Shown here one piece after another: positions 11,620 to 38,921 of a stretch of 64,000 nt of DNA. The translations under genes and the position numbers were made by a program. Source of the stretch: a virus. Position 1 is the stretch's first letter; each line of letters opens with the position of its first letter. The notes beneath the pieces are model-generated. The model worked only from the letters and a program-made list of their open reading frames with translations, ran no database searches and was not told the DNA's origin. The DNA is taken from IMG/VR virus record IMGVR_UViG_3300046673_000164, positions 1-64,000 of that record; one strand, given 5' to 3'.

Positions 11620-12133
11620 TCTTCCCTCCGTGAATGAAGTCTTCGGGATCGAGTCTGAGCAAGTTGTCCAGATAGGCTGTCCAGAAGCCTACGTTCGGAA
11701 ACGAGGCTAATAATACCGGGCCGAAGCAACCGGACAGTAAAGGCAGAAACACCAATGCCCGCCTCGCATTCTCTTTCACAATCATCAAAGGCATCTTTTT
11801 GCATTTCCATCCTTGCTTACAGCACTTCTTCCACATCGCTACCAGCTTGCCTCTTCCATAAACAAGCAAGTCAAGATCAAGCCGTTTGTAGCTCTTTGCC
11901 TCGACAAAGAACGTATCCGCGAACGCGAAGCCGTCGGGATGGATGGCAGCAAGGTCGCCCGCCTGATGGTTCAACTCGCCGCCCTTCTTCCGTAACGTTG
12001 TCGCCCGCCCTCCGCTCTGGCTCGACCGCCAGAACAAATCTTTGCTCTTGCCCCCGCTAACCCATAGGGACAGCTTGCGGCATAACTCCCGTTCGAAGCC
12101 GCTTCCCTTCGCCTTGGATGCCTTACCGCCCAT
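11543..12133 (-). CDS. PD-(D/E)XK nuclease, Holliday-junction-resolvase-like
   Basis: The 196-residue protein begins MGGKASKAKGSGFERELCRKL (conserved Glu), then AGDLAAIHP (Asp) and FFVEAKSYKR (E-x-K), the three active-site positions of PD-(D/E)XK nucleases. Phage members resolve recombination junctions or trim DNA. The ATG shares one base with the stop of the RecA-like gene (TAATG). The C-terminal 25 residues overlap the SbcD-like gene and may be dispensable. Confidence 0.65.
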   Translation of the reverse strand: MGGKASKAKGSGFERELCRKLSLWVSGGKSKDLFWRSSQSGGRATTLRKKGGELNHQAGDLAAIHPDGFAFADTFFVEAKSYKRLDLDLLVYGRGKLVAMWKKCCKQGWKCKKMPLMIVKENARRALVFLPLLSGCFGPVLLASFPNVGFWTAYLDNLLRLDPEDFIHGGKNANSTYFGSAPDRPAKRRLSLGLLE

Positions 12134-15513: not shown

Positions 15514-16439
15514 CACCCAAAGATTATCCGACCCAGACTCAGAAGCAGCGGAGCGAAGCCCTCCGACGAATTGTAGGGCTCGCTGAACGCGTCGATCATT
15601 TCCAACACGCGGCCGGCAACCTTGTCGCTACTGGCTCCAAACGCCGCAGTCGTCAGGTAAGCCAGAGTCACCAGCCGTATACTTTCGGGGTTCTGCTCGC
15701 GCAACGGCTCCAGCAGCTTGATCGCCTTCGCCCAAGTCAGGCCCTTGACCAGAGCGCGGGCCAGCACAATTGCGTCGCCTTCCTCGTCCGCTTTCTGAAG
15801 TAGCGGTAGAGCCTCCTTCGCAGTCTTGCATCCATAGCACTGAGCCAGATAGGTCAAGGCTCGTCGCGGCGACCCGAACGACTGCCGGGCGACCACCGCC
15901 AGAACTTCGTCCGGCGTCTGGTAGTCCTCCGCCTCCCGCACCTTCTCCAGCAGCTCAATCAGCAGATCGACGCAGACCGGCTGCAAACCGAAAGAGGTGC
16001 AGCGAGTCTCAATCGTCTTCGGTATCTTTCCCGGCTCAGTCGTACAGAACACCCAATACACGTGCGGGGGCGGCTCCTCGACCGACTTCAACAAACTCTG
16101 CCAAGCCTGCTTGCTCAGGGCGTGGGCCTCATCGATCACGATCACCTTGGCCGTCGACTCTCCGAATCCCTTATAGGCGGTCCCGTCAGCGATCTGCCGC
16201 ATGGCGTCGATTCCGGTATGTGTGGCCGCGTCGACCTCCAGGAGATTCTGCGGCTCGCATCCGACCTCTCCTGCGAGGATACGAGCTAACGTCGTCTTGC
16301 CGACTCCACTCGGGCCGGTCAGCAGAAAGGCGTGTGCCGTCTTCTTCTTCAGCACGGCGCACAATCCCTTGACCACCGGAGCTTGACCAAGCACCTCATC
16401 CCAGGTCGTCGGCCGATATTTACGATGAAGATCGCTCAT
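15513..16439 (-). CDS. Clamp-loader ATPase (DnaX-like)
   Basis: The 308-residue protein starts MSDLHRKYRPTTWDEVLGQ, a typical DnaX/RFC N-terminus. It has Walker A GPSGVGKT (42-49), Walker B VIVIDEAHALS, and a sensor-1 region VYWVFCTTEPGKI followed by TIETRC. It lacks the four-Cys zinc module of bacterial DnaX. It probably loads the phage clamp encoded at 19730-20758. It overlaps the polymerase gene by 4 nt. Confidence 0.85.
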   Translation of the reverse strand: MSDLHRKYRPTTWDEVLGQAPVVKGLCAVLKKKTAHAFLLTGPSGVGKTTLARILAGEVGCEPQNLLEVDAATHTGIDAMRQIADGTAYKGFGESTAKVIVIDEAHALSKQAWQSLLKSVEEPPPHVYWVFCTTEPGKIPKTIETRCTSFGLQPVCVDLLIELLEKVREAEDYQTPDEVLAVVARQSFGSPRRALTYLAQCYGCKTAKEALPLLQKADEEGDAIVLARALVKGLTWAKAIKLLEPLREQNPESIRLVTLAYLTTAAFGASSDKVAGRVLEMIDAFSEPYNSSEGFAPLLLSLGRIIFG

Positions 16440-19027
16440 AACTCATCCGAAAAGAAGGTTCCCACAGGCCGCATGTCGGCCCAGTTCTCGCCTATCTTCA
16501 CTTCCACACTCATCGGCACATTGACCCAATCGAAGGCCGGAGTCAGCATTTCGCGGACGATCTCCTCTTGCAGCCCCTCCAAGCGATCCTTTGGAATATA
16601 AAACTCTAGGTCATCGTGCAGATCGATCACGGCCTGGAACGCCGGCTCCTCCTCCTTCTCCGCCCGCACCGACAGGCGGTTCATCGCCTCGACCACCAAG
16701 TCGCTGGCCACTCCCTGCGTGATGTTGTTGAGTAGCTGGTTGGTGCTCAACGGAGCCCGCCGCCTCCGCCCTGTCAGCCCGGTCACATAGCCGTCATGCT
16801 GATAGTCGGCCAGCTGCTTCTCCTGCCACTTCCAGACACCAGGGAACGCGCCCTTGAACTCCTCAAACAAATCCTCGCATTTTCGAGACAGCTTCAAACG
16901 GGCCGCGATGCTTTCCCAAGCCGCCCCGTAGAAGCCGGCCAACACCCAATTGCTCTTCACGTCCTGCCGCAGCTTCTTCAAGTCGTTTCCATACTCCCGA
17001 TATGCCCTCAGGTCCGCCTTAGCAATCCGTTCCGCCCAGTCGCCATGAATGTCGTGGCGGTCGACGAACGACCTGACCAGCCGCTTATCCCGCGACTCCA
17101 TTGCGATCACCCGTGGCTCGATCTGCCCGTAGTCGCAAGACAATAAAACATGCTTGCAACTAGCCCCGGTTATCGGATGGGTCTTCGGCGCCGTCACAAT
17201 AGCTCGCACCCACGCATCCTCCCGCATGGGGAAGTTCTGTACGTTTGGGTCTTGGCTACTCAACCGGCCAGTCACGGTGAATAGATCGTTGAACTTCGTG
17301 TGCAGCCGCCCGTCCGCATACACTACGCCTCCGACCGGGGCGCAAGGATCGATGTAGGTAGATTTCATCTTGGAGTAAGATCGCAGCCGCAAAACCGCGG
17401 ACGCGATCGGCAGGTCCATCTTCTCCAAAGCGGAGTCATCGACGCTGTATCCGGTCTTGTTCTTCTTCCGCTGCCCCTCCCGCCGGTCGAGTAGGTCGCG
17501 GAACAGAACGACTAGCTGCGGGTTAGAAGTCGGTTCCAGCGGCTTGCCGATCTTCTTCTCGTACAGCCTCGCCTCGCGGCTGTCGGCAATCTCCAACAAA
17601 CATTGATCGATCTTCCGCTGCATCTTCTTCTGAAACTTGGCCACCGCGTCAAAGTCCACCACCAGGCCCTTCTGCTGCGCCCTGACCAGCGTCAAACATC
17701 GACGGAGGTGTAGTTTGTATGCCTCCTGTAATCCCTCCTGCTCAATCTCTTCCGCCTGGACATGATACAACTTCGCCTCATACTTTGCGTCCAGCGCATT
17801 ATACTTCAGTAGCCGGTCGATGCCTTCCTCCGCCAGCCGAGACCGATCCACGTTGCTTTGGCTTTTCAGCCGGAATCCGAATCGGTGCAGACAGCAGTCG
17901 TCGAGGCTGAGGCCGCCCCGCCGCTCATCCAGAACGTAAGCCTGCGACATCGTATCGCCCCATCCGGTCCGCCGCCATCGCGGGTTATGCCCATATATTT
18001 GTGTCATCCACTCCAGCTCGAACGGAAGGCTATGGGCGACCTTAACACATTTTGAACGGAGGAATTGCAACACTAGGTCTTTGGCCCGATGCCAATCATC
18101 GGGAGACCATCTGGCGTCCTTGTGGCAGATCGGCAAGGCCCACGTGATCCGGCCGTCGGAGAAGGCTATTGACAGCCAGCCGTTGACGGGGGGCAGCATA
18201 TACGGCCGGAGGGCCTTGGTTTCTATGTCGAAAGCAATGATTGCTCTTTCGGCAACCCAAGCCGCTAGCTGCCTCCCCAAACGAGTTAGCCCGCTAGAAT
18301 CCCTGGCGTAGCGTATACCGCGATCCAGGCCGTCGAGGGGTTCTAGGGTAGGATCGCCCAAGCCTCGCGTTATACGCGAAGCCAACCCCCTTAAATCGCA
18401 TTTGAAGACTAGGTTCCAATCCTCGTCAGCGTAATTGCTCGACCGCTGGACGAACGACGGGTGGAGGATCGGGTACAGCCAGCAGACATGCTCCCCCGCC
18501 TTGACGGGCATCAGCTTGCCCCGCCACTTGGTGATCGAGGATTCCCCGGTCGCCCACAGCAGGGCAGTCCCGCCGACAGCCAGAATCACCTGCGGCCTAG
18601 CCCGCTCGATGCTGCGGACGACCCGCCTGCGGCATCGCTCGAACTCGACCCGTTCCGGCGTCCGGTTGTCCGGCGGGCGGCAGCGGCAGCAGTTGTCCCA
18701 CCGCAAAGAATCCAGCCCGACCTCTTTCAGAATGGAGCGTAGCAGCCGGCCGGACCTACCAACAAACTGCTCGGCCTTCTTGTCCTCATCGGCTCCAGGC
18801 GCCTCGCCCAACACGTAGATGATAGGATGCTTCTCACCGGTCGGCTTCATCCCAGGGCTAAGCACCTCGTCGGTCAACAACGAGCATCCGTCGCAGCCTC
18901 GCTCCTGGATGGAGGAGTAGTCGATCTCAACCGGAGCAGAACGAGGGTTAGCCTTTCGCGGCCCGAAGCCAACCCGCTTCTTGACCGCCTTCTTCTCAGT
19001 GCGGGTGAAGAATCCGACATCACTCAT
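16436..19027 (-). CDS. Uracil-DNA glycosylase (family 4)-DNA polymerase A fusion
   Basis: From ATG 19027 the protein has 863 residues. Residues 40-200 form a family-4 UDG-like domain: CDGC (45-48), GEAPG (74-78), a second Cys group (CCRC near 114, Cys132) that would bind an Fe-S cluster, and HPS (189-191). Then follows a 3'-5' exonuclease (DIET at 267-270, later HSLPFELEW and YNALDAKYEAKLY) and a PolA domain with motif A CDYGQIEPRV, a motif B-like KSNWVLAGFYGA and motif C DLHDDLEF. SPO1-type phage polymerases also carry a UDG-like part. This is the replicative polymerase of the phage. Confidence 0.85.
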   Translation of the reverse strand: MSDVGFFTRTEKKAVKKRVGFGPRKANPRSAPVEIDYSSIQERGCDGCSLLTDEVLSPGMKPTGEKHPIIYVLGEAPGADEDKKAEQFVGRSGRLLRSILKEVGLDSLRWDNCCRCRPPDNRTPERVEFERCRRRVVRSIERARPQVILAVGGTALLWATGESSITKWRGKLMPVKAGEHVCWLYPILHPSFVQRSSNYADEDWNLVFKCDLRGLASRITRGLGDPTLEPLDGLDRGIRYARDSSGLTRLGRQLAAWVAERAIIAFDIETKALRPYMLPPVNGWLSIAFSDGRITWALPICHKDARWSPDDWHRAKDLVLQFLRSKCVKVAHSLPFELEWMTQIYGHNPRWRRTGWGDTMSQAYVLDERRGGLSLDDCCLHRFGFRLKSQSNVDRSRLAEEGIDRLLKYNALDAKYEAKLYHVQAEEIEQEGLQEAYKLHLRRCLTLVRAQQKGLVVDFDAVAKFQKKMQRKIDQCLLEIADSREARLYEKKIGKPLEPTSNPQLVVLFRDLLDRREGQRKKNKTGYSVDDSALEKMDLPIASAVLRLRSYSKMKSTYIDPCAPVGGVVYADGRLHTKFNDLFTVTGRLSSQDPNVQNFPMREDAWVRAIVTAPKTHPITGASCKHVLLSCDYGQIEPRVIAMESRDKRLVRSFVDRHDIHGDWAERIAKADLRAYREYGNDLKKLRQDVKSNWVLAGFYGAAWESIAARLKLSRKCEDLFEEFKGAFPGVWKWQEKQLADYQHDGYVTGLTGRRRRAPLSTNQLLNNITQGVASDLVVEAMNRLSVRAEKEEEPAFQAVIDLHDDLEFYIPKDRLEGLQEEIVREMLTPAFDWVNVPMSVEVKIGENWADMRPVGTFFSDEL

Positions 19028-19029
19028 GC

Positions 19030-19386
19030 TTAATCCTCGGCCTGGATGCGGCGGCTGGCCAGATACCGGCGCAGGTTCTTGTGAAAGGGCTGATCCGCCA
19101 GCCAATCGAGATAGTCTAGTTCGATCTCATCCAGCCGCTTCCCGACACACTTTCCGAACAGCATGGGCTGATTGCCGAACTGCCTGGCCTCCTGGTCGGT
19201 CATCGGGCCAAGGTCCGCCCGACTCTTCTTCCGCGGCAGAAGCGGGCAGGCGTCGCGGATCACTTCCCAGAACGCGTCCGCTGAAGGCTCGTCGATATGC
19301 TCGGCTGCCTCAGACCGAATCAGGTCGACCAGCTCCTTGGCCCTTTGCCGGGCGATCACCCTAGCCTTGATTACAGACTCGTCCAT
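19030..19386 (-). CDS. DUF3820/exonuclease X C-terminal-like protein
   Basis: The 118-residue protein ends with MLFGKCVGKRLDEIELDYLDWLADQPF, matching the pattern F-G-K-x-K-G-x-x-L-x-x-I-x-x-x-Y-L-x-W found at the end of exonuclease X-type proteins and in DUF3820. The N-terminal part is helical and lacks an exonuclease core. It lies next to the polymerase gene, 2 nt apart. Function unknown. Confidence 0.6.
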   Translation of the reverse strand: MDESVIKARVIARQRAKELVDLIRSEAAEHIDEPSADAFWEVIRDACPLLPRKKSRADLGPMTDQEARQFGNQPMLFGKCVGKRLDEIELDYLDWLADQPFHKNLRRYLASRRIQAED

Positions 19387-19729: not shown

Positions 19730-20758
19730 TTAACCCTCCGCTTTGACACCCACCAGAACTTGGAAATTGTCTCCCTCCAACACAATACAACGATCGCTAA
19801 TCCCAATCCGCTTGGCGACATCGAGATAGCGGAGCACATACTCTGCGCAGGTGTAGACTTTGATTGGCTCCTCGCCCAAGTCGATTTTGACCGAATCGCG
19901 AATCTCAATCCCCTGATCCTTGGCTAGCAGATTCAGCCGACCATCAGCATAAGAGAACTCGACGTCTTCCTTCTGCGAAGCGATCAAGGATCGTTGCAGG
20001 CAGCGAGCCAACGACGCCGGTACGTCGGCCTTGGGTATTTCGTCGAGCTTAGATGACAAGATCATCTTCTCGTAGCGGTCGGGTTCGGGATCGCCTATCA
20101 ACTTACCGAACAGTTGCGCCTCATCAGACACGCCAATCACATCACCTCCCGTGGTGAACACAATCTTAGTATTGGCTCCAATGCCCAACAGCAGCTCATA
20201 GAACCGAGGCGGCAGAACGAAGCTCTTTCCAGAGAGCTTCGACACCCTATGGTTTTCCACCACCCGAGCCACACTAACGTTGTCCGTCCCAAACAGGGTT
20301 AGTTTCTTTTCTCCAAAAACAAGGGTGATCCCGCTCAGCGTCGGGTGCATTAGATTCAGGGTGGCAGACCGAGAAACGATCTTGACCGCCTCTCGCAGCT
20401 TCACATCCAAGTCAAGCTCGATACCTCTAATCTTCGGAGGAACAAACACAAAGTCACTAGTCGGCAATACCGCCAACTTGAGCTTAGATCGCCCCAGCTT
20501 GAACAGCGCCTGACCATCATCCTGCTGACACTCTACATCAGCAGCCGAAGATGAAGAGAGGACGGCCAGAAGCTGAGCACCTGGAACCGCTCCTTCCAAC
20601 TCCAGATCACAATCGCATCGAAGAGCAACAGAATCATTGTAGGCGCTGACCTGCCCATCACAGAAGCATAGGTGGGTCAAAACCGGGATTAGAGAACTAG
20701 CCCCAGCAAGGGCTGGTTGCACACGACGTAAGGCGGATAACAACTCTTCTCTATACAT
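19730..20758 (-). CDS. Sliding clamp (DnaN-like)
   Basis: The 342-residue product has the length and alternating strand/helix pattern of a bacterial-type beta clamp: MYREELLSALRRVQPALAG at the start, an AVPGAQLLAVLSS segment, SATLNLMHPTLSGITLVFGEKKLTLFGTDN (typical of domain 2), and SFVLPPRFYELLL. It should encircle DNA and tether the polymerase. The clamp loader and polymerase genes are downstream in the same operon. It overlaps the DpdA-like gene by 8 nt. Confidence 0.75.
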   Translation of the reverse strand: MYREELLSALRRVQPALAGASSLIPVLTHLCFCDGQVSAYNDSVALRCDCDLELEGAVPGAQLLAVLSSSSAADVECQQDDGQALFKLGRSKLKLAVLPTSDFVFVPPKIRGIELDLDVKLREAVKIVSRSATLNLMHPTLSGITLVFGEKKLTLFGTDNVSVARVVENHRVSKLSGKSFVLPPRFYELLLGIGANTKIVFTTGGDVIGVSDEAQLFGKLIGDPEPDRYEKMILSSKLDEIPKADVPASLARCLQRSLIASQKEDVEFSYADGRLNLLAKDQGIEIRDSVKIDLGEEPIKVYTCAEYVLRYLDVAKRIGISDRCIVLEGDNFQVLVGVKAEG

Positions 20759-21818
20759 ACTGGAAACTCCTTAGTCTGTCAGGACCGCCCAAAGAACGAT
20801 CCGCGAACGACACCAACTTGTATTGTGGGTAGCAGAATATCTTTGGGTCCATGTAATGCTTTACGGTCCACAAGTCGGAAAGCCACGAGCCATCAAACAC
20901 CTGTAACCTGCGCCACGGGACCGTAATCACACCCCCATCCTCAAACAGATTTGTAGGAATTACGAACGGTTTTATTTGATACTCGACGCAGAATCGGATG
21001 TTGATATACGAGTTGACCAACAAACGAAAAGTCCTAGCAGAACACTTGTCTACCCCAGACTTGCGTTTGACGTCGGTCCTAGGCGGCATACTGAAACAGC
21101 TCTCCAGCCCAGTAGCCTCGACAAAGTCGAGGATGTACTTTCGATTCTCGGCTCCGATACCCAACGACTTCAACCACCGATCACGGAGCTTACCATACAT
21201 TTCGCCGCCATGCGCCCGCTCAGAAACATAGATCCGTCTCGGAGCCACCGTGTAGCAGTACTCCCCATCGCGCATCTGAGGAATGAGGATGCCACCCCTA
21301 CCGGCATTCCCAAACGCGCTCGTGCTGTCGCAGGAGAACCATGGGTAGCGTGTCATCAGACCAAACCGAGTCACAGCAAACCCATGCACCTTGACCATCT
21401 CCCCCCTACGATGAAAAATATGGGAGAAAACGGAATCGAGCCATCGAATAAGCTGCTCGTTGCTGACCCGCAGAAGGCCGCCGACCCCCAGATAGTCGAT
21501 ACCACTATCCAAAATCTTGTCCAGCCAATAGACACGCTCGGAGTAATGAAACACCGGCATCGGACTGAAGCCAGATCGAACCATTCGCTGATAGTTCTTC
21601 CAGCTACCCTTAGCGGCCTCCTCCACAATCATCGGGTCGGTTCGACTGCTTGGAATTACGTCGAGGTTCACGTAGGTCTGCAAAATATCCTCGACCTGCT
21701 CGATGTAGTTGCAATACTCGGTCAGATCGACCGTCAGGCCTTTTGTCCAGACCGAGACCGCCCCACTATCAAGCATCATCGTACAAAACAGCTTGTCCAA
21801 ACGCTCTCGTGTCTTCAT
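20751..21818 (-). CDS. dpdA: DpdA-like DNA 7-deazaguanine transglycosylase
   Basis: The 355-residue protein has the TGT-like barrel signature of phage DpdA: Asp17 in MMLDSGAVSVW (equivalent to DSGGFQ of tRNA-guanine transglycosylase), YLGVGG (110-114), and Asp164 in WFSCDSTSA, the likely nucleophile. DpdA exchanges guanine in DNA for preQ0 or a derivative, protecting phage DNA from restriction. The surrounding queC, queD, queE and folE genes make the precursor. It overlaps the FolE fusion gene by 4 nt. I infer the family from these motifs and context. Confidence 0.78.
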   Translation of the reverse strand: MKTRERLDKLFCTMMLDSGAVSVWTKGLTVDLTEYCNYIEQVEDILQTYVNLDVIPSSRTDPMIVEEAAKGSWKNYQRMVRSGFSPMPVFHYSERVYWLDKILDSGIDYLGVGGLLRVSNEQLIRWLDSVFSHIFHRRGEMVKVHGFAVTRFGLMTRYPWFSCDSTSAFGNAGRGGILIPQMRDGEYCYTVAPRRIYVSERAHGGEMYGKLRDRWLKSLGIGAENRKYILDFVEATGLESCFSMPPRTDVKRKSGVDKCSARTFRLLVNSYINIRFCVEYQIKPFVIPTNLFEDGGVITVPWRRLQVFDGSWLSDLWTVKHYMDPKIFCYPQYKLVSFADRSLGGPDRLRSFQYV

Positions 21819-22714
21819 TTTCCTCGTGCTCCAGACAAGAACTCCTCGCGGGCCTTTGCGTCATCCTTGAAGACTCCTCGCAAAGCGCAGGTAGAAGTGG
21901 TAATGCCCGCCTGATGAATGCCGCGGCTCTCCATGCACGTGTGGCGGCACTCAATCAGCACCGCCACGCCCTTTGGCTCCAAGCCGTTCTGTAGGGCGTC
22001 GGCCACCTGATTGGTCAAGCGCTCCTGCACTTGCAAACGATGGGAGTAGATGGAGACAAGACGACTGACCTTGCTCAGCCCCACAATCCGATCGTTGGGG
22101 ACATAGGCAACGTGCGCGACGCCGAAGAAGGGCGCTAGGTGATGCTCACAAAAGGACCATAACGGCACGTCCCGCAGCAAAATCATCTCGTCATACTTCT
22201 CCGCCCCGTCCGCGAAGCTGTGGAGTATCTCGGCGGGGTCTTGCTTGTAGCCAGAAGTCCAATGCTGCCACGCCTTAGCGAAGCGCTCCGGCGTCTTGAG
22301 CAGCCCTTCCCGCTTTGGGTCCTCGCCGATATACTCCAGCAGCCGGGTGGCAATGTCCATGCCAGATGATAACGACCCGTCGCAGCCCTCTTGCTTCTCC
22401 CAGGGGAAGACGACCCACTGCGACGGATCATCTTTAAGATGCAGGGAGAAGAAGGGCTTGTCGGGATACCGCTGCCGCCAGACCTCTTGCGTGCGACCAG
22501 AGTCGACAATATCATCGACAATGACGGCTGCCAACTCAGGATCATCTGCCGCTTCAATCCGCTCAGGGAACAAGCTACTGAGCAGCATGGCCACGATCGT
22601 CCCGCCACGGGGCACCCCATGCACCACCACGGGCAAGGGGAGGGGCGTCGCCAGAATTGCTCTGCCTAGCGCTCGCAGCTTTTCCTGAGTCCGCCGTATC
22701 GTTAGGTCCAGCAT
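21815..22714 (-). CDS. folE: Phosphoribosyltransferase-GTP cyclohydrolase I (FolE) fusion
   Basis: ATG 22714 follows GGGAGAG with good spacing and gives 299 residues. Residues 1-105 are a type I phosphoribosyltransferase: [10 protein letters not shown] near 30 and the PRPP loop [13 protein letters not shown] (63-75). Residues 118-299 are GTP cyclohydrolase I with zinc ligands Cys189 and His192 in [10 protein letters not shown] and Cys260 in [10 protein letters not shown]. FolE makes dihydroneopterin triphosphate, the first step to preQ0. The fused PRT may act on a purine to feed GTP or on a pathway intermediate; this is inference. Confidence 0.85.
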
Positions 22715-22883
22715 CGCTTCTCTCCCGATGAATGGCAGCGTAGACTTCCTGCCGATGAACAGAAACTTCTTTCGGCGCCTCGACTCCGAGGCGTACCTTA
22801 TCCCCACGAATCTCGACGATCGTGATAGTAACATCGTCTCCAATCACGATCGCCTCACCCCGATGACGCGACAGAACCAGCAT
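22575..22883 (-). CDS. csrA: CsrA/RsmA family RNA-binding regulator
   Basis: Residues 1-53 match Csr[21 protein letters not shown], then [20 protein letters not shown]. CsrA dimers bind GGA motifs in mRNA leaders and alter translation or stability. The frame continues to 103 residues with a low-complexity tail that overlaps the first 140 nt of the FolE fusion gene. The tail may be a by-product of the overlap or of a frame error. It lies between queC and folE. Targets could be host or phage transcripts; GGA motifs are common in this phage's leaders. Confidence 0.85.
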
Positions 22884-22910
22884 AGATCGTCCCTCCTTAA
22901 ACAAAGAATC

Positions 22911-23603
22911 CTACAAACCCTTGGCCCTCGCCACCAACGGATCGACAATACCGGCCTCGGCAAATCCCTTGGCCCGCAGCAAACAGGCATGACAATGACC
23001 GCAGGGCGGGAAGACGCCGTTATAGCAGGTATGGCTATAGGCCAGAGCTTCCATGCACTCCGGCAACGCAGCAGCCAACTCAACTGTCTTCTTCTTGCTG
23101 AGGAAGAGTACCGGAGCCCAAATAGCTAACTCCGATTCCCCAGCAGCGTGATGAATCGTCTTGTTGGCTGAGATGAGAAACTGCTCCCGACAATCGGGAT
23201 AACCACCAAAGTCTTCCTGACTCACCCCTACCACCAAAATCCTGGCGCCATGATGATAAGCGCGGTTGGCGGCCAGGGTCAGGAACAAAAGATTACGCAT
23301 AGGAATGAAGGTGGCTTCGATCCCTCCCGGCAAGACCTCCGCCGAGGCGTACTGGACGACATCGACGCTCTTATTCACCAACGGACTGGAGGATTGAAGT
23401 ACGCCATCGGGCAGCAGCAACAACTCCCGCTCAACGTCGGCCATCTCCGCCACCTTCCACGACGCTTCGATCTCGCAGCAATGCTTCTGCCCATAGAAGA
23501 TCGACAGCGCCTTGACTTCCGCTTTCCCCCACCGCCGAATTGCAGCATACAAGCAGGTCGTCGAATCCTGCCCGCCAGACAATAACACAATGGCTTTGGT
23601 CAT
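22911..23603 (-). CDS. queC: QueC, 7-cyano-7-deazaguanine (preQ0) synthase
   Basis: The 230-residue protein has the PP-loop SGGQDST (9-15), FYGQKH, a FIPMRNLLFLTLA segment and a C-terminal zinc site CYNGVFPPCGHCHACLLR, all typical of QueC. It converts CDG to preQ0 with ATP and ammonia. Length matches bacterial QueC. A TTTGTATATCTA motif and AAGGAGG precede the ATG, and a strong terminator isolates it from the upstream gene, so it probably opens its own transcript with csrA, folE and dpdA. Confidence 0.93.
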   Translation of the reverse strand: MTKAIVLLSGGQDSTTCLYAAIRRWGKAEVKALSIFYGQKHCCEIEASWKVAEMADVERELLLLPDGVLQSSSPLVNKSVDVVQYASAEVLPGGIEATFIPMRNLLFLTLAANRAYHHGARILVVGVSQEDFGGYPDCREQFLISANKTIHHAAGESELAIWAPVLFLSKKKTVELAAALPECMEALAYSHTCYNGVFPPCGHCHACLLRAKGFAEAGIVDPLVARAKGL

Positions 23604-23621
23604 GGTTAAACCCTCCTTGAC

Positions 23622-23634
23622 TAGATATACAAAT
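23622..23634 (-). promoter_or_regulatory. TTTGTATATCTA promoter-like motif before queC
   Basis: The minus strand reads ATTTGTATATCTAG about 20 nt before the queC start, directly downstream of the terminator at 23650-23700. A new transcript has to begin in this gap, so the motif is a good promoter candidate. Confidence 0.5.
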
Positions 23635-23649
23635 CAGCTCTTTCCCCAC

Positions 23650-23700
23650 AAAAAGAAAGGTGGGTGAGGAGCCGGGGCCTACCCCGCAAACTCCTCACCC
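23650..23700 (-). terminator. Strong intrinsic terminator
   Basis: GGGTGAGGAG (23662-23671) pairs perfectly with CTCCTCACCC (23691-23700), with a small GGGG/CCCC hairpin inside. On the minus strand the stem is followed by ACCTTTCTTTTTG. It ends transcription behind the acidic/basic repeat gene. Confidence 0.85.
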
Positions 23701-23715
23701 GCCCAAACGCCACCG

Positions 23716-24426
23716 CTAGCCCTTCAACGCGCCGCGCTTCTGCAGCGAGGCCAGAGTGCTCTTGATCGCCGCCAGCTGCACCCCAATTGTGCCCTTGCCC
23801 GGAACAATCCCCTTCTTCTCCAGCTTGGCCAAGACCTTGTCGGTCAAAGCCTTGGGGCTCTTGTCCGGAGCGGCGAGGAAGGCGTCGAGGTACGCTTCCC
23901 GCAAGTTCTCGACAATGCCGGTGCCCGGCGCCTTCTTCTCGAACGGGGTGTCGCCCTTCTTCTTCGCCTTGGGCGCCTCTTCCTCGTCTTCGTCCTCATC
24001 GTCGGCGGCCTTGGCCTTCTTCGGCTTCTTGGCCTTGGGCGCCTCTTCCTCCTCGTCCTCGTCTTCGTCCTCATCGTCGGCGGCCTTGGCCTTCTTCGGC
24101 TTCTTGGCCTTGGGCGCCTCTTCCTCGTCCTCTTCCTCTTCGTCCTCATCGTCGGCGGCCTTGGCCTTCTTCGGCTTCTTGGCCTTGGGCGCCTCTTCCT
24201 CCTCGTCCTCGTCGGCGGCATCGGGGTCGACGATCGCCTTCTTGGCCTTGATCGCCAAGACGGCCTCGTTGGTCCAATCCTGATCCGCTTCGGGCAGCGT
24301 CGCCCAGTCGTCCTCCGGCGCCTTCAGTACGGCCTTGACCAGCCGCTCCAGATACGCCTGCCGCTCCTCGCCGTCCTCCGGCTTGCAGCCAGTCAACTTC
24401 ACCAATGCTTTCAATGCACTCGCCAT
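23716..24426 (-). CDS. Acidic/basic repeat protein, possible DNA-binding ends
   Basis: The 236-residue protein has an N-terminal helical domain (about 1-70), a central array of four near-identical units built as acidic runs followed by APKAKKPKKAKAADDED, and a C-terminal helical domain (VENLREAYLDAFLAAPDK...). Lys/Ala/Pro-rich units resemble histone H1-like tails, here alternating with acidic stretches. A role in condensing or organising DNA is possible. It lies between queD and the terminator in the modification operon. Confidence 0.6.
   Translation of the reverse strand: MASALKALVKLTGCKPEDGEERQAYLERLVKAVLKAPEDDWATLPEADQDWTNEAVLAIKAKKAIVDPDAADEDEEEEAPKAKKPKKAKAADDEDEEEEDEEEAPKAKKPKKAKAADDEDEDEDEEEEAPKAKKPKKAKAADDEDEDEEEAPKAKKKGDTPFEKKAPGTGIVENLREAYLDAFLAAPDKSPKALTDKVLAKLEKKGIVPGKGTIGVQLAAIKSTLASLQKRGALKG
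23968..24215 (-). repeat. Tandem repeats encoding acidic/KKPKKAKAA units
   Basis: About four tandem units of roughly 65-75 bp, differing mainly in the number of GAG/GAC codons, lie inside the gene at 23716-24426. Length variation within the acidic runs suggests slippage or unequal recombination. Confidence 0.7.
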
Positions 24427-24439
24427 AGCTCGATCCCTT

Positions 24440-24850
24440 TCAAAGCTCTGCCCAACAGGTGGGCGTTTCAAAAAGCCGCATGGACACCATGCCCATGGGC
24501 AGACCTACCAAACGTTGACGAATCTCGGTCGCAATCTGCTCGATCATGTTCTCGACCGTAGGTTCGTCCTTCATCTCCACTATACAAATATCCAAGTTGC
24601 TATCTCGCAGTATTTGCAGTAGTGGATCACAAGAGCATAACGCAACGGCGTGATCCCACTCCGCCAGTACTCCCGCGATCAGGCATTTGACTTCGTAGAA
24701 GTCCATCACCATGCCATGGTCCTCAGCGTTCCCCCACAGCACAATCTCAATCCCATAGGTGTGGCCGTGGAGGTTATGGCACTTGCCTTCGTGCTCGGGC
24801 AAGCGGTGGGCCATGTCGAAGGTCGTCTTGAATCCGATCCGTGCCATCAT
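24440..24850 (-). CDS. queD: QueD, 6-carboxytetrahydropterin synthase
   Basis: From ATG 24850 the 136-residue protein has zinc ligands His15 (MAHRLPEH), His28 and His30 (NLHGHTYG) with catalytic Cys24 just before them, then MVMDFYEVK, a conserved WDHAVAL segment and PTVENMIEQIA. All match QueD, which converts dihydroneopterin triphosphate to 6-carboxytetrahydropterin. It overlaps queE by 4 nt (ATGA). Confidence 0.93.
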   Translation of the reverse strand: MMARIGFKTTFDMAHRLPEHEGKCHNLHGHTYGIEIVLWGNAEDHGMVMDFYEVKCLIAGVLAEWDHAVALCSCDPLLQILRDSNLDICIVEMKDEPTVENMIEQIATEIRQRLVGLPMGMVSMRLFETPTCWAEL

Positions 24851-25440
24851 TGCACCCCTATGATCTTCTGAGTTTGTAGGCTGAGGCGCCACCCGCGACG
24901 CATACACAAGTCGATGCATGTCCTCAGGTTGGCCTTGTTCTTCTCATCGTCGTGGTCATCACGAGGCTGAACGAAAGTCGGGATAGGTCCAGTATAGCAC
25001 TCCTGCCGATCTTCGGCCCCAACAACAAACTTAAAAGCGCTGGCATTCTTGACGATGCCGAAACGAACGGCGTGACTCGGCTTCGGCGAGCAGACGATCG
25101 AAACGAACTTTGGAATTGCCCACTCAATCTCGGGCTGCCAAAGTGTGCCGTTGGTTTCGATCTGCACCGCGCACTTCTGAGCAAACAGAATCTTGACCAG
25201 CAAAGACAAGGGCTGCGTGAAGGGCTCACCTCCGGTGATGACCACGAAGCGATTGGGTGGGATGATCTGCTCGACGGCATACATAATGTCCGCCTCGCAC
25301 ATCTCTTTGGCATCAGTGGTGTGGTCGGTGTCGCACCACGAACAGGAGAGATTGCAGCCGGCCAACCGGATGAATACGGCCGGAGTGCCTACGTCAGGGC
25401 CTTCCCCTTGCAGGGAGGCAAAGATTTCCTTGACTCGCAT
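24847..25440 (-). CDS. queE: QueE, 7-carboxy-7-deazaguanine synthase (radical SAM)
   Basis: The 197-residue protein begins MRVKEIFASLQGEG and has the CX3CX2C cluster motif Cys29, Cys33, Cys36 (AGCNLSCSWCDTDH), then VVITGGEPFTQP, QIETNGT and SPKPSHAV, typical of QueE. It forms the deazapurine ring with SAM and Mg2+. It is the first gene of the queE-queD unit and is preceded by a TTGGGA-16-TATAAT promoter. Confidence 0.93.
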   Translation of the reverse strand: MRVKEIFASLQGEGPDVGTPAVFIRLAGCNLSCSWCDTDHTTDAKEMCEADIMYAVEQIIPPNRFVVITGGEPFTQPLSLLVKILFAQKCAVQIETNGTLWQPEIEWAIPKFVSIVCSPKPSHAVRFGIVKNASAFKFVVGAEDRQECYTGPIPTFVQPRDDHDDEKNKANLRTCIDLCMRRGWRLSLQTQKIIGVQ

Positions 25441-25467: not shown

Positions 25468-25496
25468 ATTATACTCGATCCTCCGCCAATCCCAAT
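25468..25496 (-). promoter_or_regulatory. Promoter before queE
   Basis: On the minus strand TTGGGA (25495-25490 region) is followed after about 16 bp by TATAAT (25468-25473) and then AGAGGG. It lies 28 bp before the queE start and behind the end of the sigma-like gene. Good match to a sigma70-type promoter. Confidence 0.55.
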
Positions 25497-25503
25497 ATAC
25501 AAG

Positions 25504-26043
25504 TTAGCGGGAACATTTCAACCACAACTTAAACATCCGACGCAGCGGCGTCGTGTCAGGCACGCCGGCCAGCCGACACAGATATTGGTTGGTGGTCTCC
25601 CGATGGCCAACCGCTTTCCTCATCGGCAGCTTCCGCTGCCGCCCATCGACGGCCCGCAACAATACGCGGACCGCTGGTGGCGCCTCCAGCACGTGCAGAT
25701 GCCAATCAATTCCAGGATTGCGGTCGACGACCTCCAACTTGCCCAGCGGCTGCTCCCGCCTACGCGTCCGCAGCTTGGCCAGGTTGATAATCCAATTATG
25801 CAGCGCCGACTTCCAGACTGCCATAAAGTGGGCCGGCGTCTCATACTCATACCGCTCCTGAAGCTCCAGAAACTTGATGTAGGCCTCCTGGAGCAGGTCG
25901 TCCAGGTCCATCTCCCTGCCCACCCGCCACGCGTGCTTGCCGAGATAGTTGACGGCGTAGCCCGCCACGGCCCCCTCCCACTCGGGATCGTACCCGAGGA
26001 ATAGCCGCTTGATTCTCTCCCGCACCTTCTGCGCGATAGTCAT
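25504..26043 (-). CDS. Sigma-70-like factor (region 2 present)
   Basis: The 179-residue protein contains MDLDDLLQEAYIKFLELQERYEYETPAHF and a following tryptophan-bearing helix (AVWKSALHNWIINLAK) with RTRRREQ, the arrangement of sigma region 2. The C-terminal half (GHRETTNQYLCRLAGVPDTT) may be a degenerate region 4 helix-turn-helix. It could steer RNA polymerase to the TATAAT/TTTGTATA elements scattered in this genome. KGDQI precedes ATG 26043; GGAGACC lies 6 nt upstream. Confidence 0.6.
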   Translation of the reverse strand: MTIAQKVRERIKRLFLGYDPEWEGAVAGYAVNYLGKHAWRVGREMDLDDLLQEAYIKFLELQERYEYETPAHFMAVWKSALHNWIINLAKLRTRRREQPLGKLEVVDRNPGIDWHLHVLEAPPAVRVLLRAVDGRQRKLPMRKAVGHRETTNQYLCRLAGVPDTTPLRRMFKLWLKCSR

Positions 26044-26083
26044 TATCTGGTCTCCTTTGTGAAAGATAGAACGTAAATCGCCG

Positions 26084-26103
26084 GCAGGGACGCGACCCCC
26101 TGC
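26084..26103 (-). other. Hairpin with T-loop-like GTCGCGT in the sigma-like gene leader
   Basis: GCAGGG (plus 26084-26089) pairs with CCCTGC (26098-26103) around GGTCGCGT on the minus strand. It lies in a 120-nt spacer between the 320-residue gene and the sigma-like gene. It resembles the hairpins in the leaders at 27182-27200 and 29976-29993. Confidence 0.45.
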
Positions 26104-26164
26104 TACGCCTCGCCCGACCACGAGCCGGGCTGGCCGCTATGGCGACGCGGCGGAGACCATGCCG

Positions 26165-27127
26165 CTAATCCTCGAACACGATTCTCCGTTTCGGGGCCTT
26201 CTCCAGCAGCTTGTCAAGGGCCGCTTGCACGCGGGCCATCTCACCAGCCACCTCGCCCCGAGCCACTGAACTCGTCCGCAGCTTGTCAGGCTTCTTCCCC
26301 TTGAGCACGTCGCGGGCCCGAATCACCAATCCCTCCAGCTCAGCATCGCCGGCGATGTTCCTTGCTTTGAACAGATCGATGAACTCAAGCAGCTTCTCAA
26401 CGGCCGTATCCTTGAAAACCTTCTTCTCGCCGTCCGGCGTCGGCTCCAACCGCTCGGCCAGATGCCCGACCAAGCTGCGGAAGGCGTCCCGCAAGGCCTC
26501 CTGTATGTCGTAGGCGGCATTCGTCCAGGTCTCCTCAGCCTTCTTCTTCTCGCTCTCCCACAGGGCCTTGCCGATCTTAGCCTCCGACGGCACGCCAAAG
26601 TCCAAGAACCGCCGCTCGACCCACACCGCAGACCGTAAGGCACGGACACTGGGATAATTGCCGGCATCGAACTGATCCTTGAGCTGCTCTTTCGCATTCT
26701 CGACCAGCTTCGGATAGGCCTGGAAAAAGGCTTCAAACCTGCTGAGGTACTTGACCTCGGCCGCTTCGATCTTGTCGCTGATGTCGCCCACCATGCTGAT
26801 CGGAACGAGGTAGGTCCCGCGGCGGAGCGGGCTCGGCAGGCAGCGGGCCAGCAACCAGCGGCGAAGCTCGCCGGCCACCGCCACGGCCTCCCCATACTCC
26901 TTGCGGTTGACAATATCCTTATTTAGCCTCAGCATGGTCTTGTCCGCCACGGTCTCTACCTTCCCCACGTCGGCCTTGCGGTAGATACCCGGCCGATGAA
27001 ACACAAGATCAAGAACCACCACCTGATCCATAATAGCCTTGGCATCCCGCACCGACACTTCCGATGCCGGGGTCGCGGCCGCCACTTCCTCTTTGATCTC
27101 GTCCAAACTCAATCTTGCGCGCACCAT
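26165..27127 (-). CDS. Uncharacterised protein, possibly DUF3150-like
   Basis: A 320-residue charged, mostly helical protein with LRRGTYLVPISMVGDISDKIEAAEVKYLSRFEAFFQAYPKL in the middle. The general form resembles DUF3150 proteins, which accompany AAA+ ATPases in phages. The gene downstream of an AAA+ ATPase here fits that. GGGAGACC precedes the ATG by 7 nt. I am not certain of the family. Confidence 0.5.
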   Translation of the reverse strand: MVRARLSLDEIKEEVAAATPASEVSVRDAKAIMDQVVVLDLVFHRPGIYRKADVGKVETVADKTMLRLNKDIVNRKEYGEAVAVAGELRRWLLARCLPSPLRRGTYLVPISMVGDISDKIEAAEVKYLSRFEAFFQAYPKLVENAKEQLKDQFDAGNYPSVRALRSAVWVERRFLDFGVPSEAKIGKALWESEKKKAEETWTNAAYDIQEALRDAFRSLVGHLAERLEPTPDGEKKVFKDTAVEKLLEFIDLFKARNIAGDAELEGLVIRARDVLKGKKPDKLRTSSVARGEVAGEMARVQAALDKLLEKAPKRRIVFED

Positions 27128-27174
27128 TTTCTGGTCTCCCTTGCTTATGCCTTGAGCGTTGTGCTCTCAGTCAG

Positions 27175-27216
27175 GAGCCCGCGGCGGAGTCGAACCGCCG
27201 GTCACCACTCGGGCTC
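27175..27216 (-). ncRNA. Minimal tRNA-like fold (acceptor plus T-arm) in a leader
   Basis: On the minus strand GAGCCCG (27216-27210) pairs with CGGGCTC (27181-27175). Inside, CGGCGG and CCGCCG close the loop TTCGACT, which fits a tRNA T-loop. A 9-nt AGTGGTGAC joins the stems. There is no anticodon arm and no CCA. It lies just after a TATAAT box (27225-27230) and before the gene at 26165-27127. Confidence 0.5.
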
Positions 27217-27224
27217 ACCACCCC

Positions 27225-27230
27225 ATTATA
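27225..27230 (-). promoter_or_regulatory. TATAAT box overlapping the AAA+ gene stop
   Basis: The minus strand reads GCATATAATGGGG across the TAA stop of the AAA+ gene. No good -35 element is seen 16-18 bp upstream. It may start a transcript whose leader carries the tRNA-like fold. Confidence 0.35.
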
Positions 27231-28680
27231 TGCTGATCCTCCGTTTCGATCCAGCCTGCTGCCGACGATAGACGCCCGGTTTGCTGGCGCTGATATACTT
27301 GCCCTCAGCTGCATCCCTCGCGGCCTTCACGACCTCTGGGTTCGCCTTGCCGTTGCTGGAGGCGAACTGCAACACGTCCTTGAGCGAGCGGCCCATCTTC
27401 CAAGCCATCTCGCATATGTTGCGGATGTCCGACCCACTCCAGTCCGTATCGTCCGGCTGCTTGTCCTTGGCGTCGATCTCGAACTTGCCCCGATGCAATT
27501 CCCACATCGCTGCCCGCTCCTCGTCGTCGGGCATATCGAACATCCACACTCCGTAGCGGAAGCGGCGGACCAACTCCGGCGGCACGTTCATCTTGTTCAT
27601 GCTCGCCACAAAGAACACCTCGCGGCCGCCAATGGCGATCAGGGTCTTTACCACATTACGAACGTTGGCCTCGCTGCTGCCCACCAACCCCTCTTTCGTA
27701 GCGTTAATGTCGAACACCAGCGGCAACCGATCAAAGGTGTTGGCCAGCGCCTTGCTGTAGAGGCTCTTGCCCGTACCGGGAGGGCCGAAGGCAATCTGCC
27801 CCGCCCAACCGTTGTCTTCCATCGCGGAGAGAAACACCTGAAGAGCGTCTTGGCTCGTTCCGCTCAAGTCTCCCTGCGAGCCAGCCATCGACTTTTCAAG
27901 CTCTTCGACCCGCACCACCACCGCCGGCGGATGGGGCCCGGTAAACAAAGCCTCGCCAAAATCCTTTGCGTTGCTCAACCCGCGAATGTCGTCGAACGTC
28001 TCGCTGCCCTCGTCGAAGGTCAGGCCCCGGCGCTCGATGGCCTTCCGCTTGCCCTGCCACAACTGGGCGATGTCCACTCCTTCTTTCGTCAGGGCCATTG
28101 CCAGCTCTTGCTCGGCGGAGAACGCTGACAAGCCACGGAGGGCTTGCACCACCCGCTCTAAGGTCGCCTTGTCCAGCTCACCAGCAGTCTCGACGGCGAT
28201 CTCGCGCAGCCGGTCCTGGTCGGGCAGTGGCTCGTCGATCACCACCACGTCGCGGGCCAGCGGCTTCGGAAGCTGGTGGTCGGCGGCCAACAGAACGAGC
28301 ATGCGCTGGTTCTGCTTGTATTCATCCCGCAGATTCCAGCAGCCCTGCACAACGGGCAACCCACGGTCGAAGCATGCCTGCGAGTTGTGCCAAAACACCA
28401 CGGTGCCGTCGGGATAGCTCTGAGCGGCGAGCAGGAAGGCTGCGGGGTCTCCCTCCGTGTCGGACGAGGCGTAGGTCAGTCCAGCCTCATTCACCGCGAC
28501 CGTTCCGCGGCACACGTCCCACGCCAAAATCGGGGCATCTTCGTGGCCTTTGACGGTCGGCAGCACTTTGCCGATCTCTCGGATCGTCGAAGCCGGGTCG
28601 GGCGTGTTGATCGCCACCAGTGGCACTCCGGCTCGGCAGGCCGCCCGGTACAAGTCCAGCCAGTTCTTTTGATTCTTCAT
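27226..28680 (-). CDS. Ycf46-like AAA+ ATPase
   Basis: The 484-residue protein has an N-terminal part in the style of Ycf46 (PLVAINTPDP..., APILAWDVCRG, GDPAAFLLAAQ, then QRMLVLLAADHQLPKPLARDVVVIDEPLP), and a C-terminal AAA+ module with Walker A GPPGTGKS and VFFVASMNKMNVPPELVRRF as sensor region. Ycf46 ATPases are of uncertain function and occur with DUF1257 (Ycf35) and DUF2997 proteins; both are encoded just upstream here. A hammerhead ribozyme separates it from the DUF2997-like gene. Confidence 0.75.
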   Translation of the reverse strand: MKNQKNWLDLYRAACRAGVPLVAINTPDPASTIREIGKVLPTVKGHEDAPILAWDVCRGTVAVNEAGLTYASSDTEGDPAAFLLAAQSYPDGTVVFWHNSQACFDRGLPVVQGCWNLRDEYKQNQRMLVLLAADHQLPKPLARDVVVIDEPLPDQDRLREIAVETAGELDKATLERVVQALRGLSAFSAEQELAMALTKEGVDIAQLWQGKRKAIERRGLTFDEGSETFDDIRGLSNAKDFGEALFTGPHPPAVVVRVEELEKSMAGSQGDLSGTSQDALQVFLSAMEDNGWAGQIAFGPPGTGKSLYSKALANTFDRLPLVFDINATKEGLVGSSEANVRNVVKTLIAIGGREVFFVASMNKMNVPPELVRRFRYGVWMFDMPDDEERAAMWELHRGKFEIDAKDKQPDDTDWSGSDIRNICEMAWKMGRSLKDVLQFASSNGKANPEVVKAARDAAEGKYISASKPGVYRRQQAGSKRRISI

Positions 28681-28699
28681 CACTTGGTCTCCGCCAGAG

Positions 28700-28768
28700 G
28701 AACCTGCCTCGTCAGGAGCGGTAGGTAATCTCCGCTCGACGCCCCGAAGGGCGTTTCGGCTAGTGCTG
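28700..28768 (-). ncRNA. Type II hammerhead ribozyme A
   Basis: Read on the minus strand: stem II half AGCC (28761-28758), core GAAAC (28757-28753), stem III GCCC-TTCG-GGGC (28752-28741), cleavage triplet GUC (28740-28738), stem I GAGCGG...CCGCTC (28737-28716), core CUGACGA (28715-28709), stem II half GGC (28708-28706). All conserved hammerhead core bases (CUGANGA, GAAA, NUH) are in the right order. It starts at the stop codon of the DUF2997-like gene and ends before the ribosome binding site of the AAA+ gene. Predicted cut is after 28738. Confidence 0.88.
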
Positions 28769-28993
28769 ATGAACGTGGCCGTCGTGGCAATGTTGCTCGA
28801 AAGCCTTTTGCATCGACGATCCCAACTCCATCTTCGTTCGCTTGCGGCAGGTGGTCTCGCCACCCGCAAGCTCGTTGATCCGCTTTATCAGCTTGTCGGC
28901 CGATAGGTGGTTCTGCCCGCTGATCCCGTCCGTGATTATGCTGATCGTTCCGTCCTCCAGAATCTCGATCTTGATTTCGTCTTGTTGGGCCAT
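28760..28993 (-). CDS. DUF2997-like protein
   Basis: A 77-residue protein with KIEILEDGTISIITDGISGQNHLSADKLIKRINELAGGE, the usual DUF2997 pattern, and a His-rich end (HCHDGHVHQH). DUF2997 genes often lie beside DUF1257 and Ycf46-type ATPases, as here. Its stop codon (TAG) is part of the hammerhead ribozyme's first stem. Confidence 0.7.
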   Translation of the reverse strand: MAQQDEIKIEILEDGTISIITDGISGQNHLSADKLIKRINELAGGETTCRKRTKMELGSSMQKAFEQHCHDGHVHQH

Positions 28994-28994
28994 C

Positions 28995-29306
28995 TCACCA
29001 CCCTCCCTTCGCTGCGACCGCCTGGGTCTCGGTCTTCCACATTGGCTTCCAGTTCATCGCCTGGCAGGCCAACAAGACGGCCTGCTTGCTGTAGGAGCGT
29101 TTCAGGTCGTTGACTGTCCGCTGATCCTTTGCGATCGCCTTACCAGCAGCCAAGTCGATCTTAATCACCCCCCGCATGTCGCTGAGGGTCACGTTGTTGC
29201 CGAGCCGGGTGAATCGATAGCCCAGCTCGACGGCCGCCTTCTCCAATAGGTCGACATGCTCGACCTCGAACGCGACCGACACGGTCTGTACTTGGTAACA
29301 TGGCAT
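28995..29306 (-). CDS. DUF1257 (Ycf35-like) protein
   Basis: The 103-residue protein MPCYQVQTVSVAFEVEHVDLLEKAAVELGYRF... matches the short DUF1257/Ycf35 pattern, with a beta-alpha repeat and LSDMRGVIKIDL. Start at ATG 29306 because TGGAGG lies just upstream. Together with the DUF2997-like and Ycf46-like genes it forms a conserved trio of unknown function. A second hammerhead ribozyme lies directly upstream. Confidence 0.7.
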   Translation of the reverse strand: MPCYQVQTVSVAFEVEHVDLLEKAAVELGYRFTRLGNNVTLSDMRGVIKIDLAAGKAIAKDQRTVNDLKRSYSKQAVLLACQAMNWKPMWKTETQAVAAKGGW

Positions 29307-29324
29307 CACTTGGCCTCCAAGAGG

Positions 29325-29390
29325 AACCTGCCTCATCAGCGCCGGTGGGCTAGGTCCGGCGGACGCCCCGCAGGGCGTTTCGGCTATTCA
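29325..29390 (-). ncRNA. Type II hammerhead ribozyme B
   Basis: Minus-strand order: AGCC (29385-29382), GAAAC (29381-29377), stem III GCCC-TGCG-GGGC (29376-29365), GUC (29364-29362), stem I CGCCGG...CCGGCG (29361-29340), CUGAUGA (29339-29333), GGC (29332-29330). It is nearly the same as ribozyme A in stems II and III but differs in stem I, where both strands have changed together. It again begins at the stop (TAG) of the upstream gene. Predicted cut is after 29362. Confidence 0.9.
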
Positions 29391-29920
29391 CAATGGCTCT
29401 TGAGCGTCTTGGCCTGCGACGGAGTGATCGGAGCCGGCTCGCCCCGCTGCCCCTTTTTCCCGGCGAGCAACTGAATCTTGACCGTCGACATGCTCAGACC
29501 GTATTCGCCGGAAATGTCGGTGACGGCCGCGAAGGCGTCTTCCACATCCCAACCATTCTTTCCCATCCAACGGAGGACGGCAGTCACCGAGTAGTCAAAC
29601 ACCCTGGCCCGATGGACAATGCGGGGCGCCCGCTCTTTCTTCTCGGCCGGCGCGTCCTTATATTCCTCGGTTACCACCGCGCTGGTCGATCCGGAGCGCG
29701 CGTAGCCGTTGAAGCGATCCGCCTTAGCCAACGTCTCGTTGATTGCCTTCTGAAAGAGGCGGTCGGCGTGGGTCATCACCTCGACGGTCAGCTCAGCCGC
29801 ATCAATTCGCTGTTCGGCCAAGATCGCTGCGTCCTCTTTGACGTGGTGTGGGTAGATTCCGTAGTGGTCGGCCAAGGCCGCAATCCGCACCGCCAACTCA
29901 GCTCTGATTTCGCTTTGCAT
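29384..29920 (-). CDS. Hypothetical protein upstream of the Ycf46-like trio
   Basis: A 178-residue helical protein (MQSEIRAELAVRIAALADHYGIYPHH...) with a C-terminal region (VLRWMGKNGWDVEDAFAAVTDISGEYGLSMSTVKIQLLAG) that could hold a helix-turn-helix. It is the first gene after a long leader and ends in the second hammerhead ribozyme. No family recognised. Confidence 0.55.
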   Translation of the reverse strand: MQSEIRAELAVRIAALADHYGIYPHHVKEDAAILAEQRIDAAELTVEVMTHADRLFQKAINETLAKADRFNGYARSGSTSAVVTEEYKDAPAEKKERAPRIVHRARVFDYSVTAVLRWMGKNGWDVEDAFAAVTDISGEYGLSMSTVKIQLLAGKKGQRGEPAPITPSQAKTLKSHCE

Positions 29921-38564: not shown

Positions 38565-38921
38565 ATGACCAAAAAAGCTGTAAAAAAGAAGCTGGTTCTG
38601 TCTTTAGATTTTGTTTGGAAAATCCGACTGGGGCTGCGTGCTGAGGGCGACAAGCTGCGTGCTGAGGGCGACAAGCTGTGGGCTGAGGGCAACAAGCTGT
38701 GGGCTGAGGGCAATAAGCTGTGTGCTGAGGGTAACAAGCTGTGTGCTGAGGGTAACAAGCTGTGGGCTGAGGGCGAAAAGCTGTGGGCTGAGGGCGAAAA
38801 GCTGTGGGCTGAGGGTATTATCGCAGCTTTCGGAAATATCACTGTAGAATGGAAGAACTACAACAAAGAGAAACACGACTACGAATGCCATCTGGGAAAC
38901 GGCGAAGTCTATAAGCCCTAG
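38565..38921 (+). CDS. Heptapeptide-repeat protein (AEG[DNE]KL[RWC])
   Basis: The 118-residue protein has a short basic N-terminus, about nine tandem heptads of the form AEGDKLW, AEGNKLC and AEGEKLW, and a non-repetitive end (AAFGNITVEWKNYNKEKHDYECHLGNGEVYKP). Similar AEGxKLW repeats occur in scattered phage proteins of unknown function. The array should form a regular amphipathic helix. AAGGAGG precedes the ATG. Confidence 0.7.
   Translation: MTKKAVKKKLVLSLDFVWKIRLGLRAEGDKLRAEGDKLWAEGNKLWAEGNKLCAEGNKLCAEGNKLWAEGEKLWAEGEKLWAEGIIAAFGNITVEWKNYNKEKHDYECHLGNGEVYKP
38633..38815 (+). repeat. 21-bp tandem repeats
   Basis: About nine copies of a 21-bp unit (GCTGAGGGCGACAAGCTGTGG and variants) encode the heptads. 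Only a few positions vary between copies, so the array expanded recently and could change in copy number. Confidence 0.8.

Follow-up and report, generated by a model that had tools for sequence, protein, structure and literature searches.

Inspection of a 64,000-nucleotide stretch of viral DNA (hereafter the window; part of the 64,425-base IMG/VR record IMGVR_UViG_3300046673_000164) revealed six minus-strand genes with short spacers between positions 25504 and 29920, two of the spacers carrying predicted hammerhead ribozymes (Table 1). The genes encode a Ycf46-like AAA+ ATPase, members of the DUF1257, DUF2997 and DUF3150 families, a sigma-like protein and a 178-residue protein. All six lie where the original prediction had placed them, and its account of a Ycf46/DUF1257/DUF2997 set carried by a phage together with RNA elements and a DUF3150 gene was borne out by profiles and gene neighbours; what it had overlooked is the rearranged core of the ATPase. 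In our assessment this protein most probably represents an undescribed AAA+ ATPase family with a predicted AAA+ fold, in which two adjacent pieces of the core are exchanged so that Walker B precedes Walker A; the family would fit one origin and occurs in phages and, sporadically, on probably mobile DNA of Acidobacteriota and Armatimonadota.

The segments of the window ATPase follow one another in the order beta3-alpha3, beta1-alpha1-beta2-alpha2 and beta4-alpha4-beta5-lid, with the catalytic residues retained. Against solved AAA+ proteins it aligns piecewise, the P-loop part being followed by sensor 1 after about 50 skipped residues of the target; the Walker-B part missing there is located upstream of the P-loop. 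A canonical profile built from the phage relatives Rhizobium L338C, RHph_I4 and Aeromonas HJ05 was matched by the permuted proteins in four pieces, namely the N-domain, the Walker-B segment, the Walker-A segment and sensor 1 onward, with median profile positions of 357-394 for Walker B, 297-355 for Walker A and from 397 for sensor 1. Both segments aligned in 90 of the 101 permuted reading frames, the window included, and Walker B came first in every one of the 90; a straight-through alignment to the profile was obtained for none of the 101. Nine canonical proteins have Walker A first and Walker B 54 residues further on. Likewise, most permuted proteins have a spacing of 57 residues between the Walker-A lysine and the sensor-1 asparagine, versus 92-101 in seven canonical proteins (for two canonical proteins the automatic value of 9 reflects a false motif hit), and this shortening of about 40 residues corresponds to the length of the moved Walker-B piece, itself about 40 residues. 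The window family therefore departs both from the order Walker A, Walker B, sensor 1 of AAA+ proteins and from the canonical Ycf46-like core order.

Table 1. Genes, RNA elements and ATPase core segments at the locus.
Feature	Position	Strand	Basis
178-residue gene, no family assigned	29384..29920	-	no convincing family match; no homologue in the loci compared
Type II hammerhead between the 178-residue and DUF1257 genes; predicted cut after GUC, 29362/29361	29322..29386	-	RF02276 match at 29322-29385, 39.8 bits, gathering 37
DUF1257 protein, 103 residues, short and divergent	28995..29306	-	leave-window-out profile; homologue in locus L013
DUF2997 protein, 77 residues, His-rich tail	28760..28993	-	leave-window-out profile; alignment
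Type II hammerhead between the DUF2997 and ATPase genes; predicted cut 28738/28737	28698..28762	-	RF02276 match at 28698-28761, 35.8 bits
AAA+ ATPase, Ycf46-like, 485 residues, rearranged catalytic core	27226..28683	-	phrog_8638, E 2e-32; Pfam AAA, 2e-7
Moved beta3-alpha3 segment with Walker B, residues ~253-292, upstream of Walker A	27808..27927	-	canonical profile 357-392
beta1-alpha1-beta2-alpha2 segment with Walker A GPPGTGKS, residues ~294-354	27622..27804	-	canonical profile 298-353
Sensor 1, putative Arg finger and sensor-2/lid region, residues 355-472, directly after alpha2	27268..27621	-	profile resumes at 396
DUF3150 protein, 320 residues	26165..27127	-	leave-window-out profile; relatives
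Sigma-70 region 2-like gene, 179 residues	25504..26043	-	sub-cut-off Pfam match

The AlphaFold model of the window ATPase, computed from a 42-row alignment, attained a mean predicted local distance difference test score of 92.1 and a predicted template modelling score of 0.86. Its elements, named by motif, run as beta3 255-259, alpha3 262-291, beta1 294-299, alpha1 306-316, beta2 320-324, alpha2 336-352, beta4 356-362 and beta5 379-381, followed by the lid. Comparison by VIA-align matched residues 222-472 to p97 D2 (Z 16.1, 199 residues, 2.7 Å) and the whole model to p97 (Z 18.1, 394 residues, 5.3 Å); other AAA+ structures were matched as well, and the best viral fold matches were phage proteins named ycf46. 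Thus the predicted model has an AAA+ fold, and the motifs expected of AAA+ proteins are present, i.e., Walker A, Walker B, sensor 1 and an Arg finger, the latter assigned by alignment only. K306, E261, N363 and R374 do not vary across the 42 rows of the alignment.

The spread of the permuted order was followed with a DNA pattern encoding E-x-E-K-x-x-[AST]-G, 31 residues and G-x-P-G-x-x-K-[ST]. Scanning IMG/VR gave 61 stretches and scanning the 84,980 bacterial and archaeal species of GTDB gave 38, and the permuted order was encoded in all of them (61/61 and 38/38); every GTDB stretch came from metagenome-assembled genomes labelled as Acidobacteriota or Armatimonadota groups. The 45-residue Walker-B to Walker-A distance of this first set was imposed by the pattern, and a looser, variable-spacing pattern recovered other spacings in 23 further members with E values below 1e-89, cleanly separated from the best chance hit at 6e-5. 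Near-copy contigs exist within these sets. Peptide-pattern searches with the window protein alone or with a two-row alignment gave no matches, while the DNA motif-order patterns succeeded. When 50,697 phage records were searched by tblastn, using the window protein and one relative as queries, a single permuted isolate came up, Tunturiibacter phage Tunturi_3. Phages commonly carry canonical relatives: an L338C query returned 123 records in tblastn, many through the AAA+ domain only.

It could be argued that the swapped order is an artefact of misassembly, frameshift or misalignment, or that DEIEK is a chance match with a normal Walker B lying downstream, given that DNA sequence alone lies behind the order and the Walker-B piece of the window scores just 0.2 bits by itself. 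However, the Walker-B pieces of relatives are significant, reaching 24.5 bits; the model leaves 3 residues between alpha2 and beta4, which is no space for a second beta3-alpha3; and the lysine-to-sensor-1 spacing falls short of the canonical one by the length of the piece. Moreover, the order recurs in the 61 virus and 38 genome stretches, the 23 members of other spacing and the cultured phage, and these independent recurrences, as read from the sequences, already refute an artefact, whose chance of being the correct explanation we regard as negligible.

A host chromosomal core gene was also considered and rejected, the gene being present in 2 of the 61 genomes of one order, one of which was the starting genome; such sporadic occurrence would fit mobile DNA better than a core gene. 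In a tree of the N-domain, the unrearranged region, a single branch with support of 100/98 split 51 sampled permuted proteins from seven canonical ones, although long branches on some canonical rows make their internal order unsure. Such a split is compatible with one origin of the sampled permuted proteins. Because AAA+ proteins as a rule have the canonical order, the swap is taken as derived; it may have arisen via tandem duplication of the two pieces followed by loss of the outer halves. One permuted ATPase, that of locus L052, appears by eye to carry an intein-like insertion in the sensor-1 region.

The ATPase is the exception among the six proteins in its direct Pfam match, those of the other five being weak or absent, and the partners were identified with profiles from which the window was left out. 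DUF2997 (direct Pfam E value 0.07) scored 49 bits at 2e-13; DUF1257, with no direct Pfam match, scored 27.7 bits at 1e-6 and is 33% identical to the L013 homologue; and DUF3150, again with no direct match, scored 299 bits at 1.5e-89 on a profile of which two relatives pass the Pfam DUF3150 cut-off. Searches by sequence for solved relatives of the three proteins gave marginal hits only. In the window the DUF1257 and DUF2997 genes precede the ATPase gene. In the 55 permuted loci that have 2.5 kb or more of DNA downstream, DUF1257 was found in 49, DUF2997 in 49 and DUF3150 in 47, with all three in 44. Independent Pfam searches of 50 records at E values up to 0.1 found DUF1257 in 29 and DUF2997 in 32, of which 16 and 17, respectively, lie above the curated cut-off. 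The ATPase, DUF1257, DUF2997 and DUF3150 genes form a conserved unit, and with N-domain homology to phage Ycf46-like ATPases and these two DUF neighbours it qualifies as a Ycf46-like module. The original prediction was to fall if its genes failed to co-occur in other phages; they do co-occur. As to the extent of the block, DUF3150 was rightly included in it, while the sigma-like gene, shared with the nearest kin only, and the 178-residue gene, seen in the window only among the loci compared, do not belong to the conserved unit. The DUF2997 proteins of the window and of locus L048 lack the Cys found after GxG in most relatives and have His-rich tails.

The gene set in phages is already known, phage and plasmid copies being annotated in public records. 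Canonical phage Ycf46-like ATPases (phrog_8638: Rhizobium phage L338C, Aeromonas phage HJ05 and Pseudomonas phage SM1) resemble the window protein in N-domain, motif set, length and DUF1257/DUF2997 neighbours, but their Walker A stands 54 residues ahead of Walker B, the reverse of the window family. A Ca. Manganitrophus plasmid (CP114554) bears the same four genes, with an AAA family ATPase adjoining DUF1257, DUF2997 and DUF3150, and its ATPase, unlike that of the window, has the canonical core order. Cyanobacterial and plastid Ycf46, Ycf35 (DUF1257) and DUF2997 are assigned to the same protein families; among 14 control genomes the DUF1257 and DUF2997 models matched Synechococcus elongatus only. 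Compared with the solved structures of p97/CDC48, with which the window protein shares a tandem of two AAA-type domains and, in the model, the D2 fold, the chain order is rearranged, identity is about 18-23% and the N-terminal AAA-like domain has no recognisable Walker motifs.

The original prediction had proposed that the block may control host physiology or late transcription, a proposal on which the findings bear neither way. If the module acted through the sigma-like gene to reprogram the transcription or physiology of the host, this would agree with the presence of a sigma region 2-like gene next to it in the window and in the closest relatives, and with the genomic link of the cyanobacterial relatives to a ferredoxin gene in the cluster DUF2997-ycf35-fed7 (PMC4284462). 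Yet the sigma-like gene was found in 3 loci only (the window, L016 and L048), as against a widespread four-gene module, and its product matches region 2 only, at 20.4 bits versus a Pfam cut-off of 24. The homologue adjoining the module in L048 passes that cut-off with 26.2 bits; no region 4 match was found in the sigma-like protein, which thus shows neither a region 2 score above cut-off nor region 4 as evidence of sigma-70 membership. We consider such sigma-driven reprogramming unlikely. Less probable still is an IetA/IteA-type system with an anti-phage or anti-defence function, a reading to which weak matches of the ATPase to IetA/IteA models might point: the score is 29.7 bits versus a cut-off of 510, too low for membership and explained by the shared AAA+ fold, and PADLOC gave no matches for the other five window proteins.

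Among the structured spacers of the original prediction, two are predicted type II hammerheads by Rfam, and the GGAGACC motif stands where a Shine-Dalgarno is expected in front of four of the six genes. The copy at 29322-29385 exceeds the Rfam Hammerhead_II gathering score. Between the two copies 15 of 15 pairs are kept and 3 of 6 stem-I pairs are changed on both sides, a result that was equalled by 57 of 500 shuffles and, coming from two sequences, is supportive and not conclusive. Inspection shows that in both copies the ACCU of loop I can pair with an AGGU in the tail, resembling the pseudoknot described for type II hammerheads, for which similar phage and multi-ribozyme contexts are on record (PMC3088659). 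In core sequence, stems I-III, possible loop-I/tail pseudoknot and intergenic phage position the window copies agree with RF02276 hammerheads. They differ in their 5' end, which in three of the four inspected copies runs into the stop codon of the preceding gene: each window ribozyme starts at the TAG stop of the upstream gene and ends about 10 nucleotides or less before the next Shine-Dalgarno, the hammerhead of L031 (560-630) fills the gap from a TAG stop to the next start codon in another phage and ahead of another gene, and that of L013 shows no overlap. On sequence grounds GGAGACC is an extended Shine-Dalgarno and hence a predicted ribosome-binding site; it occurs 11 times on both window strands versus about 12 from a rough base-composition estimate. 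CsrA proteins bind GGA motifs in leader RNAs, and a CsrA-like regulator is encoded at 22575-22904 on the minus strand (phrog_9500, 4e-23), so that GGAGACC sites could be CsrA targets.

Overall, it appears reasonably probable that the module is an operon-like Ycf46-type AAA+ set, comprising a p97-like ATPase with a swapped core and three partners on a ribozyme-split message. The ATPase would have a p97-like layout of an AAA-like N-domain and one catalytic AAA+ domain, the rearranged domain presumably still building an ATP site, and it would probably form a hexameric ring that remodels a protein complex using ATP, with DUF1257, DUF2997 and DUF3150 as adaptors or clients. The client may be linked to phage replication, since replication genes lie close by: DnaB and a helicase for the window module, a replicative helicase for the L338C copy; the readable window neighbours include replication and DNA-metabolism genes. 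The ribozymes would probably cut a polycistronic RNA into separate messages starting about 50 nucleotides before DUF1257 and the ATPase, and since each begins at an upstream stop codon, cleavage may be held back by ribosomes that are completing translation of the gene before it. For the cyanobacterial counterparts, no function was reported in the papers found.

Several observations weigh against this reading. The second hammerhead, at 35.8 bits, falls just under the Rfam gathering threshold of 37, the minimum-free-energy z-scores of the spacers are weak (-0.33 and -1.60), and an Rfam search over 50 related records found hammerheads in three only, so they are not conserved with the module. That the moved strand takes its canonical place in the sheet is an inference. 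Finally, in about half of the permuted P-loops the Gly before Lys is replaced by Ala or Ser, and the window protein has Glu in place of the Walker-B Asp, which makes ATPase activity uncertain. These substitutions, including the non-canonical P-loops AAKS and VSKS, would suit a structural or scaffolding relic that is no active ATPase, but 42 divergent members all keep the catalytic Glu, the Lys, the sensor-1 Asn and the putative Arg finger, and the window retains a standard GPPGTGKS, making a relic unlikely.

A search of open-access full text found no permuted AAA+ or P-loop protein in the literature. AAA+ motors are found throughout life and their chain order is usually assumed to be fixed; a natural swap, if true, would mean that the fold tolerates rewiring and would test which connections ATP hydrolysis and ring motion need. 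Order-dependent profile searches catch only fragments of such proteins, so that sequence data may hide further rearranged ATPases. In addition, the phage set provides a small system for studying the conserved, uncharacterised Ycf46/Ycf35/DUF2997 proteins of cyanobacteria and plastids, while the stop-codon-overlapping ribozymes suggest a testable link between translation and self-cleavage in a phage message.

Further features were observed elsewhere in the window. The minus-strand genes at 20751-25440 include queE, genes recognised by eye as queC, queD and folE, and one for a TGT-like protein (phrog_887, E 2e-37), and probably constitute a 7-deazaguanine DNA modification pathway; two sigma-70-like promoter matches (10/12) lie directly upstream of queE at 25468-25521 on the same strand. 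Also on the minus strand, 16436-19105 encodes a uracil-DNA-glycosylase domain fused to a family A DNA polymerase with a 3'-5' exonuclease domain, and 12133-13695 a RecA-like protein with a match to the intein-splicing domain PF14890 (33 bits, cut-off 35.8). At 38612-38842 about 8 copies of a 21-nucleotide unit are arranged head to tail.

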